From NCBI RefSeq assembly GCF_014857905.1, contig NZ_JACYXE010000007.1, forward strand, positions 186,001 to 250,000: 64,000 nt of DNA, read 5' to 3'. The notes beneath the pieces were generated by a model. The model searched no databases and was not told the origin of the DNA. It saw only the letters and a program-made list of their open reading frames with translations. This document shows, one piece after another, positions 10,621-15,045 of the stretch (its first letter is position 1; the number at the start of each line of letters is the position of its first letter). Position numbers and translations under genes: made by a program. Source of the DNA: Agilicoccus flavus (GTDB lineage: Bacteria; Actinomycetota; Actinomycetes; Actinomycetales; Dermatophilaceae).

Positions 10621-13600
10621 TCAGCCGCCCTGCTGCAGGCGCCGGAGGGCCTCCGTGGCCGTGGGAAGACGACCGCCGGTCGCGGCCGGCGCGGGTCCGC
10701 TGGGGCCGGAGGAGGTCCCGCCGGTGGTGTCGGCGTCACCGGTGTCGGCGTGCCCGGCCGCCTCGACCGGAGCCGGCGGGGTCGTCGCCGGGGGCGCGTC
10801 CGTGGGCGGCTCGACGAGGTCGACCGGTCCGGTGCCCGCTCGGGCCGCGTCCTGCTCGGCGGCGTCCGTGCGGCTCGGTCCCGACTCGCTCGTGCTCGTG
10901 CCCGGGGCCGGGGCCGGGGCCTCCGACGCGGCCGGCGCGTCGGGGGCTGCCGGGGCGGCGCCGCCCAGGAGGGCGACGAGAGCGTCGGTCGCGCTCATCC
11001 GGCCGGTCGGCATGGTCCGGGCCGGGGCCGTCGGCGGTGTGGCCGCCGCCCGTCGGGGAGGCGCCGGTGCCGTGTCCTGGGCCTCGGCGGGCGCCCGCGT
11101 CGGGGTGGCCGGGGTCGGCGCATCGGGCGCCCCGGGGCGGCCCCTTTCGTCGGAGGGGCCGGCCGCGTGCGCTGACGCGGTGTCCTCGGCCGCAGTCTCG
11201 GACGGCGTCTCCGCCGTGGTCGGGGCCGCGGACGGCGGGTCCGCCACCGGCGTCGGTGCGGGCGCGGACGTCGCGGCCGCGTCGTCGGCGGGGGACGGCT
11301 CCGGACGGACCGGCTCGGACGCAGGCCCCGGAGAGGCCGGCTTCTCGGGTGCGCCGGCGGGTGCGGCCGCGCCGCCCATCATCGCGGCGAGCGCCTCGGA
11401 GGCCGACATGCGGCGGGACAGCGTCGGCGCCGCACCGGCCAAACCCGCGGAGGCCGGCCGGTCCTGCGCCGGTGCGGGGTCTGCGTCGCGCGTCGCCGGG
11501 GGCGCCACCGGGGTCGACGCGCTCGATCCCGCCGCCGGTGCGTCGCTCGGAGCGGGGGGTTGCGCCGCCGGGGCCGGACCGGAGGTCGGCTCCGACGCCG
11601 GCTGGGGCGTGGACGCGGCCGGCGACTCGGTGGTGCGCTCGGTGGTGGCCCCGGCACCGCCCATCATCGCGGCGAGCGCCTCGGACGCGCTGATGCGTCC
11701 GGTCGGGGTGGCGGGGCGATCCGCCGACGGGGCGGCCGGTGCGGCCGGTGCGGGGGCGGCATCGGTCCGGTCCGTGCCCTCGGCGGTGTCGGCCGCGGCG
11801 GGTGCGGTCGGCGCCTCCTCCTGGCTGCCGGCCGTCGCGCCCCGCATGGCCGCGAGGGCGTCGGAGGCGCTCATCCTGCCGGTGGGGGTGGCGGGCCGGT
11901 CGGTGGCCGACGTGGCCGGCGCGTCGGGTGCCGGTGCGGCCGGTGCCGGCGCGGGCGGTGTCTGCGCGTCGGATGCCTCGTCCGTCGTCGCGTCCTGGAT
12001 GGGTGCCGTGGCGGCGCCGCCCATCATGGCGGCGAGGGCGTCGGAGGCGCTCATCTTGCCGGTCGGGGTGGCGGGCCGGTCGTCGGCCGGTGCGGCCGCG
12101 GCGGGGGCGTCGTCGGTTGTCGCGTCCTGGGTGGGTGCCGGGGCGGAGCCGCCCGTCATGGCGGCGAGGGCGTCGGAGGCGCTCATCTTGCCGGTCGGGG
12201 TGGCGGGCCGGTCGTCGGCCGGTGCGGCCGCGGCGGGGGCCTCGTCGGTCGTCGCGTCCTGGGTGGGTGCCGGGGCGGAGCCGCCCATCATGGCGGCGAG
12301 GGCGTCGGACGCGCTCATCTTGCCCGTCGGTGCCGCGGGCCGGTCCGTGGCCTGCGTGCCGTTCTCGTCCGGCGGGGCCGTGGCGGAAGGCGTCGCCGAC
12401 GGTGTGTCGGATGCCTCGACCGGCGCGGTCTTCTCCTGCGCGGGGGCGGCAGCGGCGCCGCCCATCATCGCGGCGAGGGCGTCGGAGGCGCTCATGGTGC
12501 CGCCGGATGCCGCGGGCGCGGGGGGCGCGGCGGCCGCGGCGGGGGCCGGAGCCGACGCTGCGGCGGCGGGAGCGGAGTCCTCGGCCGATCCGCCGCGAGC
12601 GGCCTGGCTGTCCTGCGCGGGCGGGCCGGACGGGGCCTGCGTGTCCCCGGTCGCGCGAGCGGCCGCGACCTCGGCCGGCGACTCGCCCGCGGACGGGGGA
12701 GCGGCGGCCTCGGTGAGGTCGTTCGCGGGGCTCTCGCCCTGACGCACAGCGGCGAGGAGCATCTGCGCGATGTCGACGACCTCGACGTCGTCGCGCGCCT
12801 CGCCCTGCGCCTGCTGCGCGCCGAGCCCGTCGCTGAGCATGACGCGGCAGAACGGGCACCCGACGGCGATGCGGTCGGCGCCGGTGGCGACGGCCTCCGC
12901 CGTGCGGTTCATGTTGATGCGGGTCCCGAGCTTCTCCTCGGCCCACATGCGGGCGCCGCCGGCGCCGCAGCAGAACGACTTCTCGCCGTGGCGGGGCATC
13001 TCGGTGAGCGTCACGCCCGGCAGCGAACCGATGAGCTCGCGCGGCGGCGCGTAGACGTGGTTGTGCCGCCCGAGGTAGCAGGGGTCGTGGTACGTGACGG
13101 TCGCGGCGGTCGAGGCCGCGTCCTTCGCGGTCGACAGGCCGGGCCGCTGGTCGGGGCGGGCCACGGGGGTGAGGCGCTTCTCCCGCACGAGGCGGTTGAG
13201 CAGCTGGGTGTGGTGCAGGACCTCGTACTGACCGCCCACCTGGGGGTACTCGTTCTTCAGGGCGTTGAAGCAGTGGGCGCACGTGACGACGATCTTCGTG
13301 GCGCCGGCCTCGTTCAGCACCTCGACGTTCTGCGCGGCGAGCATCTGGAACAGGATCTCGTTACCGGCGCGGCGGGCGGAGTCGCCGGTGCAGGACTCGC
13401 CCTCGCCGAGCACCGCGAAGCTCACGCCGGCCATGTTCAACAGCTCGGCGACCGCGCGCGTGGTCTTCTTCGCGCGGTCCTCGAGGGCGCCCGCGCAGCC
13501 CACCCAGAACAGGTAGTCGACGTCGGAGAGGTCCTCCACGGCGGCGCTGCCCGCGCCGCCGACGACCGGGACCTCGAAGTCGAGGCCCTTCGCCCAGTCG

Positions 13601-15045
13601 AGGCGCAGCTTGGGCGCCATGCCCCACGGGTTGCCCTTGTTCTCCATGTTCTTGAAGAGGCCGCCGAACTCGGTCGGGAAGGCCGACTCGATGAGGACCT
13701 GGTGCCGGCGCATGTCGAGGATCTCGTCGACGTGCTCGATGTCGACCGGGCACTGCTCCACGCAGGCGCCGCACGTCGTGCAGGACCACAGGACGTCGGA
13801 GTCGATGACCGCGTCGGAGCCGTGGGGGTCGTATGCGGCGAGCGGCGACCCGTCGTAGCCGGTGGACCCGATGAGCGGCAGCGTGACGACGCCGCCGGCC
13901 ACCTCGGCGCGGCCCGTGCCGTCCGTGACCTCGGCGTCCCCGGCGCCGGACGTGCCGGCGCCCTGGGCCGCGAGCACGAACGGGGCCTTGGCGTGCGCGT
14001 GGTCGCGCAGGGCCATGACGAGCAGCTTGGGGGAGAGTGGCTTGTCGGTGTTCCACGCGGGGCACTGGCTCTGGCAGCGGCCGCACTCGGTGCACGTGGA
14101 GAAGTCGAGCAGGTTCTTCCACGTGAAGTCCTCGACGACGCCCGCGCCCATCCGGAGGTCGCCGGACTCGTCGTCCATGACCTCCTCGAGCGTCTCGGCC
14201 GTGACCGTGACGCCGTTGACCTGCATGGGCTTGAGGGCGCCGAGCGCGGTGCGGCCGTCGGCGTTGCGCTTGAACCAGATGTTGGGGAACGCGAGGAAGC
14301 GGTGCCAGGCCACGCCCATCGTCATCGTCAGCGAGATGGTGATCATCCAGGCGAACGAGATGAGGATCTTGATCGTCGCGACGAGGACGATGAGCCCGCC
14401 GAGGGTGCCCTCCGACAGGCCCGTCAGGCCGGCGCCCATCCACGCGGTGAGCGGGAAGTGCAGGAGGGAGCCGGTCGACTCGCCGGTCCGCACCGCGAGC
14501 GCGTACTCGAGGGCCCGCAGGGCGAGCACGCAGACCACGACGCCGAGGATCGTCGCCTCGACGTAGTACGCCTGCCACCAGGTGGAGCCGAAGAACCGGC
14601 TGCGACGGCCGCTCTCGCCGGCCGCACCGCGCGGGTGGGCCTTCTGGCGGACCCCGATGAGGTAGAGGATGCCGATCAGGCCGGCCCAGGCGAAGAGCTC
14701 GGTGAGCCACTCGTACGGCGGGAAGTGACCGATGAGCGGCAGCGCCGCCGACGGGTCGAAGAGCTGCAGGAACGCGTTGACCAGCGTGAAGAACAGCAGG
14801 AAGAACGACAGCGCGGTGAACCAGTGCGCCACCGCGACGCCCGGGATCCGGGCCATTCGCGTGTGGGCGAAGAATTCGCGCAGCAGCGTGCGGGTGCGCT
14901 CGGCGGGTCGATCCGTGCGCGACGCGTCGGCCGCGCCCATCCGGAACACCTTGACGAAGCGGTAGACGGACCGGAAGAGGAGGAGCCAGCCGACGGTGGA
15001 GACGGCCAGGCACACGACGATAGCCGTGATCTGCAACGCTGACAT
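10621..15045 (-). CDS. Membrane Fe-S (heterodisulfide reductase-like) oxidoreductase with repeat tail
   Basis: A 1474-residue protein. Residues 1-260 form a membrane domain resembling a NarI/HdrE-type cytochrome b anchor. Two 4Fe-4S motifs follow, CTECGRCQSQCP (about 318) and CTTCGACVEQCP (about 425), then two cysteine-rich CCG domains with CAHCFNALKNEYP (about 590), FCCGAGGARMW (about 693) and CPFCRVML (about 731). This core is like the mycobacterial Rv0338c protein of about 880 residues and should pass electrons between a membrane carrier and a cytoplasmic partner. From about residue 768 the protein carries an extra Pro/Ala/Thr-rich tail of roughly 700 residues with eight copies of a MSASDALAAMMGG peptide and a degenerate ninth at the very end. 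The ATG at 15043-15045 opens directly into the first membrane helix. The gene stands alone, divergent from cysK. Confidence 0.88.
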   Translation of the reverse strand: MSALQITAIVVCLAVSTVGWLLLFRSVYRFVKVFRMGAADASRTDRPAERTRTLLREFFAHTRMARIPGVAVAHWFTALSFFLLFFTLVNAFLQLFDPSAALPLIGHFPPYEWLTELFAWAGLIGILYLIGVRQKAHPRGAAGESGRRSRFFGSTWWQAYYVEATILGVVVCVLALRALEYALAVRTGESTGSLLHFPLTAWMGAGLTGLSEGTLGGLIVLVATIKILISFAWMITISLTMTMGVAWHRFLAFPNIWFKRNADGRTALGALKPMQVNGVTVTAETLEEVMDDESGDLRMGAGVVEDFTWKNLLDFSTCTECGRCQSQCPAWNTDKPLSPKLLVMALRDHAHAKAPFVLAAQGAGTSGAGDAEVTDGTGRAEVAGGVVTLPLIGSTGYDGSPLAAYDPHGSDAVIDSDVLWSCTTCGACVEQCPVDIEHVDEILDMRRHQVLIESAFPTEFGGLFKNMENKGNPWGMAPKLRLDWAKGLDFEVPVVGGAGSAAVEDLSDVDYLFWVGCAGALEDRAKKTTRAVAELLNMAGVSFAVLGEGESCTGDSARRAGNEILFQMLAAQNVEVLNEAGATKIVVTCAHCFNALKNEYPQVGGQYEVLHHTQLLNRLVREKRLTPVARPDQRPGLSTAKDAASTAATVTYHDPCYLGRHNHVYAPPRELIGSLPGVTLTEMPRHGEKSFCCGAGGARMWAEEKLGTRINMNRTAEAVATGADRIAVGCPFCRVMLSDGLGAQQAQGEARDDVEVVDIAQMLLAAVRQGESPANDLTEAAAPPSAGESPAEVAAARATGDTQAPSGPPAQDSQAARGGSAEDSAPAAAASAPAPAAAAAPPAPAASGGTMSASDALAAMMGGAAAAPAQEKTAPVEASDTPSATPSATAPPDENGTQATDRPAAPTGKMSASDALAAMMGGSAPAPTQDATTDEAPAAAAPADDRPATPTGKMSASDALAAMTGGSAPAPTQDATTDDAPAAAAPADDRPATPTGKMSASDALAAMMGGAATAPIQDATTDEASDAQTPPAPAPAAPAPDAPATSATDRPATPTGRMSASDALAAMRGATAGSQEEAPTAPAAADTAEGTDRTDAAPAPAAPAAPSADRPATPTGRISASEALAAMMGGAGATTERTTESPAASTPQPASEPTSGPAPAAQPPAPSDAPAAGSSASTPVAPPATRDADPAPAQDRPASAGLAGAAPTLSRRMSASEALAAMMGGAAAPAGAPEKPASPGPASEPVRPEPSPADDAAATSAPAPTPVADPPSAAPTTAETPSETAAEDTASAHAAGPSDERGRPGAPDAPTPATPTRAPAEAQDTAPAPPRRAAATPPTAPARTMPTGRMSATDALVALLGGAAPAAPDAPAASEAPAPAPGTSTSESGPSRTDAAEQDAARAGTGPVDLVEPPTDAPPATTPPAPVEAAGHADTGDADTTGGTSSGPSGPAPAATGGRLPTATEALRRLQQGG
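10996..12495 (-). repeat. Coding repeat array, (T)G(R/K)MSASDALAAMMGG x 8
   Basis: Eight copies of a 13-residue peptide are encoded here. The Met (or Ile) codons lie at 12493, 12316, 12184, 12052, 11872, 11692, 11407 and 10996. Spacing is 59, 44, 44, 60, 60, 95 and 137 codons. Copies 2-4 lie in near-identical 132-bp DNA units (about 12010-12320), pointing to recent duplication, while the other linkers differ. The peptide is conserved much better than the Pro/Ala linkers around it. A degenerate ninth copy (GRLPTATEALRRLQQGG) ends the protein. Confidence 0.9.

Follow-up and report, generated by a model that had tools for sequence, protein, structure and literature searches.

A repeated short motif in the disordered tail of an actinobacterial EtfD and its possible role in the capture of ETF

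We analysed a window of 64,000 nucleotides from Agilicoccus flavus (NCBI RefSeq assembly GCF_014857905.1, contig NZ_JACYXE010000007.1, positions 186,001 to 250,000 of the forward strand). One gene in this window raises a question, as it encodes an Fe-S oxidoreductase with a tail of about 700 residues in which a short peptide recurs. Which enzyme is this, are the repeats conserved, and what might they bind? The gene and its two parts lie in the window as follows.

10621..15045, minus strand: etfD-like gene, ETF:menaquinone oxidoreductase with repeat tail, 1474 aa (ORF with ATG start; phmmer)
12733..15045, minus strand: folded core, residues 1–771, with membrane helices, two [4Fe-4S] sites and two CCG domains (Pfam, AF2, phmmer)
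10624..12732, minus strand: disordered tail, residues 772–1474, rich in Ala, Pro, Thr and Ser (AF2 pLDDT, composition)

The product of the 1474-residue ORF contains 4Fe-4S and CCG domains (Pfam), and its residues 4–766 match residues 5–744 of M. smegmatis EtfD (PDB 9ojn) with an E-value of 4.5e-194 (phmmer). By hand-counted alignment positions, T553, H591 and C592 line up with M. smegmatis Thr539, His583 and Cys584, which distinguish the linear [3Fe-4S] and noncubane clusters (D2, D1) of EtfD from heterodisulfide reductase (PMC13083937). H591 and C592 are invariant in alignment A2, where T553 is conserved at 90% at least. By homology, the window protein is EtfD, the ETF:menaquinone oxidoreductase of beta-oxidation. 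A reading made earlier from the sequence only was thus right about an Fe-S oxidoreductase core with a tail of about 700 residues. It had also matched the catalytic core to a family of about 880 residues, which is too long for this protein: in an AF2 model of residues 1–935 (27 aligned rows), the confident fold stops at about residue 771, and residues 772–935 have a pLDDT below 50. The length of 880 residues must therefore count the tail of the mycobacterial homologues.

In beta-oxidation, EtfD links ETF to menaquinone, and EtfD of M. tuberculosis pulls down EtfB (PMC8593149). The genome of A. flavus contains one EtfD match at an E-value of 1e-50 or better and four ETF-family matches that form two adjacent pairs. 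PF05187, the canonical ETF-QO iron-sulfur domain, has no match in this genome (0/1) and matches in 4/14 control genomes. These matches would be in keeping with an EtfD that accepts electrons from ETF in vivo. Beside the main EtfBA, the genome has a second, divergent ETF pair (L189, L190).

The tail is of simple composition. From residue 776 onward, aromatic residues and cysteine are absent, and A, P, T, S, G, D, E, Q, K and R make up 92.7% of the residues. The nine motif copies occupy only 117 of the 699 tail residues but hold 34 of the 48 L, M, I and V residues. All copies lie on the minus strand.

12457..12495, minus strand: motif copy 1 (aa 851), MSASDALAAMMGG; AF2 helix in both folded pieces
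12280..12318, minus strand: motif copy 2 (aa 910), MSASDALAAMMGG; AF2 helix in both folded pieces
12148..12186, minus strand: motif copy 3 (aa 954), MSASDALAAMTGG; AF2 helix in the 840–1140 piece
12016..12054, minus strand: motif copy 4 (aa 998), MSASDALAAMMGG; AF2 helix in the 840–1140 piece
11836..11874, minus strand: motif copy 5 (aa 1058), MSASDALAAMRGA; AF2 helix in the 840–1140 piece
11656..11694, minus strand: motif copy 6 (aa 1118), ISASEALAAMMGG; AF2 helix in the 840–1140 piece
11371..11409, minus strand: motif copy 7 (aa 1213), MSASEALAAMMGG; from sequence, outside the folded pieces
10960..10998, minus strand: motif copy 8 (aa 1350), MSATDALVALLGG; from sequence, outside the folded pieces
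10624..10671, minus strand: terminal copy at the exact C-terminus, aa 1459–1474, RLPTATEALRRLQQGG (aa 1460–1474 are LPTATEALRRLQQGG); visual comparison with terminal copies in relatives, outside the folded pieces
11975..12345, minus strand: 132-bp tandem duplication with motif copies 2–4, 2.8 units (TRF, 93% matches)

The start-to-start spacings of the copies are 59, 44, 44, 60, 60, 95, 137 and 109 codons, in agreement with the range of 44–137 codons given before. The sequence-only reading had described the same 13-residue peptide eight times. The number of copies stands, as the core pattern [MI]SA[ST][DE]AL fits eight tail copies; the sameness does not, as the exact 13-mer is found in 3/8 copies and SAS[DE]ALAAM in 7/8. 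The loose core pattern occurs eight times, whereas 2000 composition-preserving shuffles gave 0.01 occurrences on average and never more than two. Three copies had been placed in fresh 132-bp duplications, which fits the TRF array that spans copies 2–4; two of its units were compared and are 97% identical. Outside the motif, identity among the copies drops. Among the six non-tandem copies, the 12 codons show a pS of 0.32 and a pN of 0.13, that is, the peptide is kept while the DNA drifts. The earlier description of the peptide as amphipathic-looking holds weakly, with a modest hydrophobic moment of 0.20. Opposite the tail, an open frame of 695 codons lies on the plus strand (window 10655–12742), which is probably a by-product of the GC-rich repeats.

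We folded pieces of the tail that cover residues 772–1140. Folded alone, residues 840–1140 form six AF2 helices of at least four residues, one on each motif copy (6/6) and none elsewhere. The tail portion of the 1–935 model has helices of at least four residues on 2/2 copies; there is also one helical turn of three residues at about 774–776. As the mean pLDDT of the 840–1140 piece is 47, the helices are suggestive only, and we cautiously propose that the motif copies may form short helices.

Next to the window protein stand the EtfD proteins of its family. EtfD was present in 115 of the 119 family genomes searched, and 100 were retrieved for comparison; this set includes Mobilicoccus, Kineosphaera, Arsenicicoccus, Dermacoccus, Intrasporangium and others (in the NCBI taxonomy, Mobilicoccus belongs to Dermatophilaceae and Arsenicicoccus to Intrasporangiaceae). 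With tails measured from the column that holds residue 766 of the window protein, 41 of the 100 are longer than 60 residues and 59 have 5–32 residues. The long tails carry different words, by which we grouped them into classes: A with SAxEAL (11 and the window protein), B with DPWD (19), C with PSWE (7), D with RFGWA (2) and E with MSWE (1); one tail is masked. Class F, with the word GSLFD[LI], belongs to another family of the same class and is carried by 6/6 named Nocardioides seen. Class G, with words like G[LF]G[IM]..G.KRPG, belongs to a third family and includes two named Rhodococcus. The tail of 9ojn carries GLG[ML]AG[AG]AKRPG words, which are of the class-G kind. Szekely 2020 is reportedly the source cited for the mycobacterial EtfD repeats. 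In the window tail, which was read as a whole, there is no such mycobacterial-type word; it has the SAxEAL word instead. The Streptomyces and Micromonospora seen have mostly short-tailed EtfD. In a sample of 216 relatives, which is uneven across taxa, 131 tails have 60 residues or fewer and 12 long tails have none of these words. In several draft genomes (L042, L052, L070, L105, L134, L135, L136, L137), the contig ends within the EtfD tail, thus tail lengths from draft genomes are lower bounds. Three genomes of the class-F family (L179–L181) have long tails that lack the GSLFD word and are rich in acidic repeats.

As in the window tail, the large hydrophobic residues of the other tails are found mostly in the words. 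The words hold 130/139 of the W and F residues in class B, 77/86 in class F, 41/42 in class C and 22/26 in class D; for L, M, I, F, W and Y, they hold 188/300 in class A and 109/174 in class G. Across these proteins, the repeat tails of actinobacterial EtfD are composed of lineage-specific words, namely SAxEAL, DPWD, PSWE, RFGWA, GSLFD[LI] and the mycobacterial repeat. The wide spread of such tails and the unrelated words in sister lineages go beyond what had been noticed in the window.

How are the words distributed on the tree? We inferred a tree of 147 EtfD cores with a quick method, on which long branches were flagged. The class labels need 12 changes on this tree compared to 65.7 in shuffles. 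Class A is one clade (SH-aLRT 97) whose sister is an Arsenicicoccus-type DPWD group (99), and both sit in a clade of 38 rows (100) that includes 19 class-B, six tail-less and one other row. The tail was thus either retained or built anew as the word changed.

Within class A, the word is well conserved. A loose pattern that fixes positions 0–5 finds 58 copies in the window protein and its 11 class-A relatives, with the terminal copy of the window protein not among them. Among the positions left free by the pattern, the preceding one holds M, I or V in 58/58 copies, and M or L is found at position 8 in 58/58; P-x-G-K/R precedes many of the copies. Copy number changes fast, as the close sister pair L065 and L069 has 13 and 7 copies, respectively. 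Absence of the motif from close relatives with the same tail had been named as an observation that would speak against docking motifs; the motif is conserved across the class-A clade. The suggestion that the disordered tail carries multivalent linear motifs has good support: the word is conserved, also across the clade, the spacers vary, helices are predicted on the motifs with low confidence, and most hydrophobic residues fall within the motifs. The repeats are unlikely to be an assembly artefact, because tandem copies of this kind also occur in a relative assembled as a single contig (G041, locus L039).

The word appears to be confined to EtfD. In the A. flavus genome, 8 of the 18 matches to the motif have an E-value of 0.18 or lower and all eight are in EtfD, with nothing convincing elsewhere in this genome (best match outside EtfD, E 0.23). 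In five class-A relatives, every match with an E-value below 0.1 falls in EtfD. We found no convincing word outside EtfD in nine relatives (five of class A, two of B and two of C; best E 0.32), nor a convincing class-F word outside EtfD in four Nocardioides-group genomes (best E 0.049).

The final copy of the window protein had been called degenerate. This view has to be given up, as the copy matches the conserved C-terminal copy of the class-A clade: all complete relatives that could be assessed (9/9; 8 by a stricter pattern) have such a copy 5–6 residues before the end, which argues against mere decay. In the nearest relatives, proximal copies have the form MSAADALAMM and distal copies MSASEALALL or a close variant, while the terminal copy is IAASEALKIL or a close variant. 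As the wording differs between proximal, distal and terminal copies, the terminal copy looks like a separate conserved position. A Trp-bearing stretch precedes the terminal copy in 9/9 complete class-A relatives and is absent from the window protein.

A copy at the end of the tail is not restricted to class A. Among the 73 motif tails, 18 could not be assessed, being masked or truncated by a contig end or locus flank. Of the remaining 55, 54 have a copy within the last 20 residues compared to 11.2 expected from other 20-residue windows of the same tails, with terminal patterns that were fixed per class after the tails were read; stricter patterns find the copy in 53/55. In the only miss (L169), inspection by eye shows a variant of the class-G word at the end. 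The protein stops exactly with the word in class F (11/11), class C (4/4) and most of class B (14/16), whereas 5–6 residues follow the pattern in class A; class D ends in a variant word, with RLGAW for RFGWA. The counts of 216 and 73 leave out eight loci from duplicate genomes, L141 and L142 (short tails) and the window protein itself. L164 and L208 are probably one genome, as they have the same EtfB coordinates, and only L208 was assessable.

We then looked for changes linked to the motif in the EtfD core and in the two ETF subunits, EtfB (ETF-beta) and EtfA, with EtfB and EtfA compared across 60 family genomes and A. flavus (61 in total). EtfB has seven columns that are diagnostic of class A, and five of these (240, 247, 251, 254 and 258) lie within residues 236–262, that is, in the last 27 residues. 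Position 240 is L in 12/12 class-A proteins and in 0/49 others, 251 is V in 12/12 and 0/49 (K in 42/49 others), 254 is Q in 11/12 and 0/49, and 258 is M, L, I or V in 12/12 and 0/49. Outside this stretch, position 169 is V, I, M or L in 12/12 and 0/49. At 169, 240, 251 and 258, class A has changed from polar, charged or small residues to hydrophobic ones. By contrast with this cluster, EtfA has three diagnostic columns, which are scattered. The stretch in EtfB is not hypervariable elsewhere (mean entropy 0.70 vs 0.62), and in each of the 25 clades that lack class-A members, residues 236–262 contain at most one EtfB diagnostic column. An equally dense window of 19 residues, a size picked after seeing the data, arose in 269/200000 uniform draws and in 109/50000 variability-weighted draws.

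By position, the last 27 residues of EtfB match the domain II arm of C. difficile EtfB (residues 235–265). The arm, made up of a strand and a helix, joins the mobile flavin domain II, and in one state of the C. difficile-type complex it makes a small contact to the partner dehydrogenase (PMC5691135). The class-A changes in the arm would fit a docking of the tail on the mobile flavin domain of ETF. They come from one clade and count as one event, thus they may also be a single unrelated burst of change. ETF, the first guess of the sequence-only reading for the partner, is plausible since ETF is the known donor of EtfD and the class-A changes cluster in the EtfB arm.

The other classes were searched for a similar signal. 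No matching change of the EtfB arm was found in classes B to E, with Q at 251 in 4/15 class-B genomes. EtfB has an insertion of one residue in 12/12 class-F genomes and in 0/3 genomes of another genus of the same family with long GSLFD-less tails. We considered the Nocardioides (class F) change in EtfB as a second case of co-change and dropped it; tail-less Kribbella shares the change (2/2 genomes), and it is thus not linked to the tail. The insertion and the altered arm (DEDGSGA-like) occur in EtfB of L368, L370 and L332–L349 (Kribbella and Nocardioides-group) whatever the EtfD tail; L334, L336, L337, L341, L343 and L344 are without them. When the columns diagnostic of class A and of class F were tested jointly across EtfB, EtfA and EtfD, their clustering was not significant (507/1309 circular shifts as high).

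To which known systems can the tail be compared? The closest is mycobacterial EtfD (Rv0338c / MSMEG_0690, 9ojn), which has a homologous core and a disordered C-terminus with conserved interspersed repeats, whose length varies by species and on which AlphaFold3 places ETF (PMC13083937). The mycobacterial tail has also been described as proline-alanine-rich and repetitive (PMC11567552). A disordered repeat tail is thus present here as in mycobacteria, and such a tail does not define EtfD. The two differ in that the mycobacterial word is basic and rich in Gly and Pro, whereas the window word is short, acidic-hydrophobic and predicted to be helical; furthermore, the tail has about 700 residues in the window protein and about 265 in M. 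smegmatis. With its repeated conserved word in variable disordered spacers, the window tail has the make-up of a multivalent short-linear-motif scaffold. Epsin and Eps15 similarly have long disordered regions in which a short word for one adaptor is repeated many times (8 DPW in Epsin, 15 DPF in Eps15; PMC7787433), and the class-B EtfD tails also use DPW; EtfD is in contrast a bacterial membrane oxidoreductase with a putative partner. In pyrenoids, poorly conserved disordered linkers condense one conserved partner, Rubisco, which sets a precedent for a linker that changes while its job stays (PMC11570498). That linker is a separate scaffold, whereas EtfD carries its tail on the electron acceptor itself. 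We do not claim homology to either system. For the SAxEAL word, the binding of a named partner is indicated only indirectly, by the EtfB arm changes in one clade.

We consider it the best explanation, at a probability of roughly one half, that the EtfD tail is a multivalent arm of short predicted helices that captures ETF. EtfD would take electrons from ETF (EtfBA) and hand them to menaquinone. The 700-residue tail would present nine short helices (S/P-A-S-E/D-A-L-x-x-M/L) on a flexible linker poor in sticky residues. Each helix would bind ETF weakly, most likely at the C-terminal EtfB arm of the mobile flavin domain, so that the tail would concentrate ETF beside the Fe-S clusters and might increase electron flux. 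The C-terminal helix may be the founding, conserved copy, with internal copies arising by duplication and turning over fast, and related lineages would use other sticky words to the same end. A wider proposal, which we put forward tentatively and with the odds somewhat against it, is that EtfD repeatedly evolved such ETF-capturing tails. The docking word would have been rewritten by lineage (SAxEAL, DPWD, PSWE, RFGWA, GSLFDL, GLGxxxGxKRPG), founded at the C-terminus and duplicated inward, with co-change of word and EtfB arm at least in the SAxEAL clade, and the tails would keep ETF locally pooled or condensed at the membrane; beta-oxidation would then have a diversifying docking code.

Other explanations have to be weighed against ETF capture. 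The repeats could be a neutral expansion of GC-rich tandem DNA without a binding role, as might be expected from the recent 132-bp duplication, the unstable copy number and the 59/100 family members that lack such a tail. We regard this as quite improbable, given that the word is retained while synonymous sites drift, persists across the clade and stands near the C-terminus in nearly all assessable tails (54/55, with 11.2 expected). Alternatively, the motif helices could associate with one another or with the membrane and thereby cluster EtfD, with no specific partner. A sticker-spacer make-up and the fast change in copy number (7 vs 13 in L069 vs L065) agree with this, but the conserved copy near the C-terminus and the EtfB arm cluster would be left unexplained; moreover, the hydrophobic moment of 0.20 is modest, and the DPWD and PSWE words are acidic and do not look membrane-seeking. 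Such self-association therefore seems improbable.

A tail that is always in cis might also regulate EtfD by docking of its motifs on the core. In the 935-residue model (27 rows), judged from confidence values alone, we see no sign of tail helices docking on the core, with the two motif blocks staying at a mean pLDDT of 37–38. The core has few class-A diagnostic columns (five of 752), and these are spread from 17 to 398. An intramolecular role is thus highly unlikely. Finally, the tail might bind acyl-CoA dehydrogenases (ACADs), or ACADs and ETF, to form a beta-oxidation assembly at the membrane. Multivalent stickers would suit a scaffold of this kind, and immunoprecipitation of M. tuberculosis EtfD gave 49 hits, yet among the eight cytoplasmic EtfD interactors quoted there, none (0/8) is named as an ACAD (PMC8593149); we consider this assembly unlikely.

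Disordered repeat tails and a predicted contact to ETF are already known for mycobacteria. In the description of the published EtfD structure, no ETF is captured and the tail is not resolved, and the tail contact comes only from an AlphaFold3 model (PMC13083937). Our literature searches (open-licence papers) found no description of tail words in non-mycobacterial EtfD. As far as we searched, the helical word, the diversity of motifs, the rule of the terminal copy and the signal in the EtfB arm are new. If ETF capture is right, EtfD would be a clear example from bacteria of a multivalent disordered scaffold whose architecture is kept while the binding word is rewritten. The natural word swaps and the tail-less relatives are ready chimaeras and controls for locating the docking site in bacteria that are harmless. 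Among the 59 short tails of the family, none was seen to end in a single word of the long tails. Many short-tailed EtfD (L210–L265, Streptomyces and others, as well as short-tailed family members) share a different sort of recurrent C-terminus, with ends like PEPEPVK or PEPxPAPxA.
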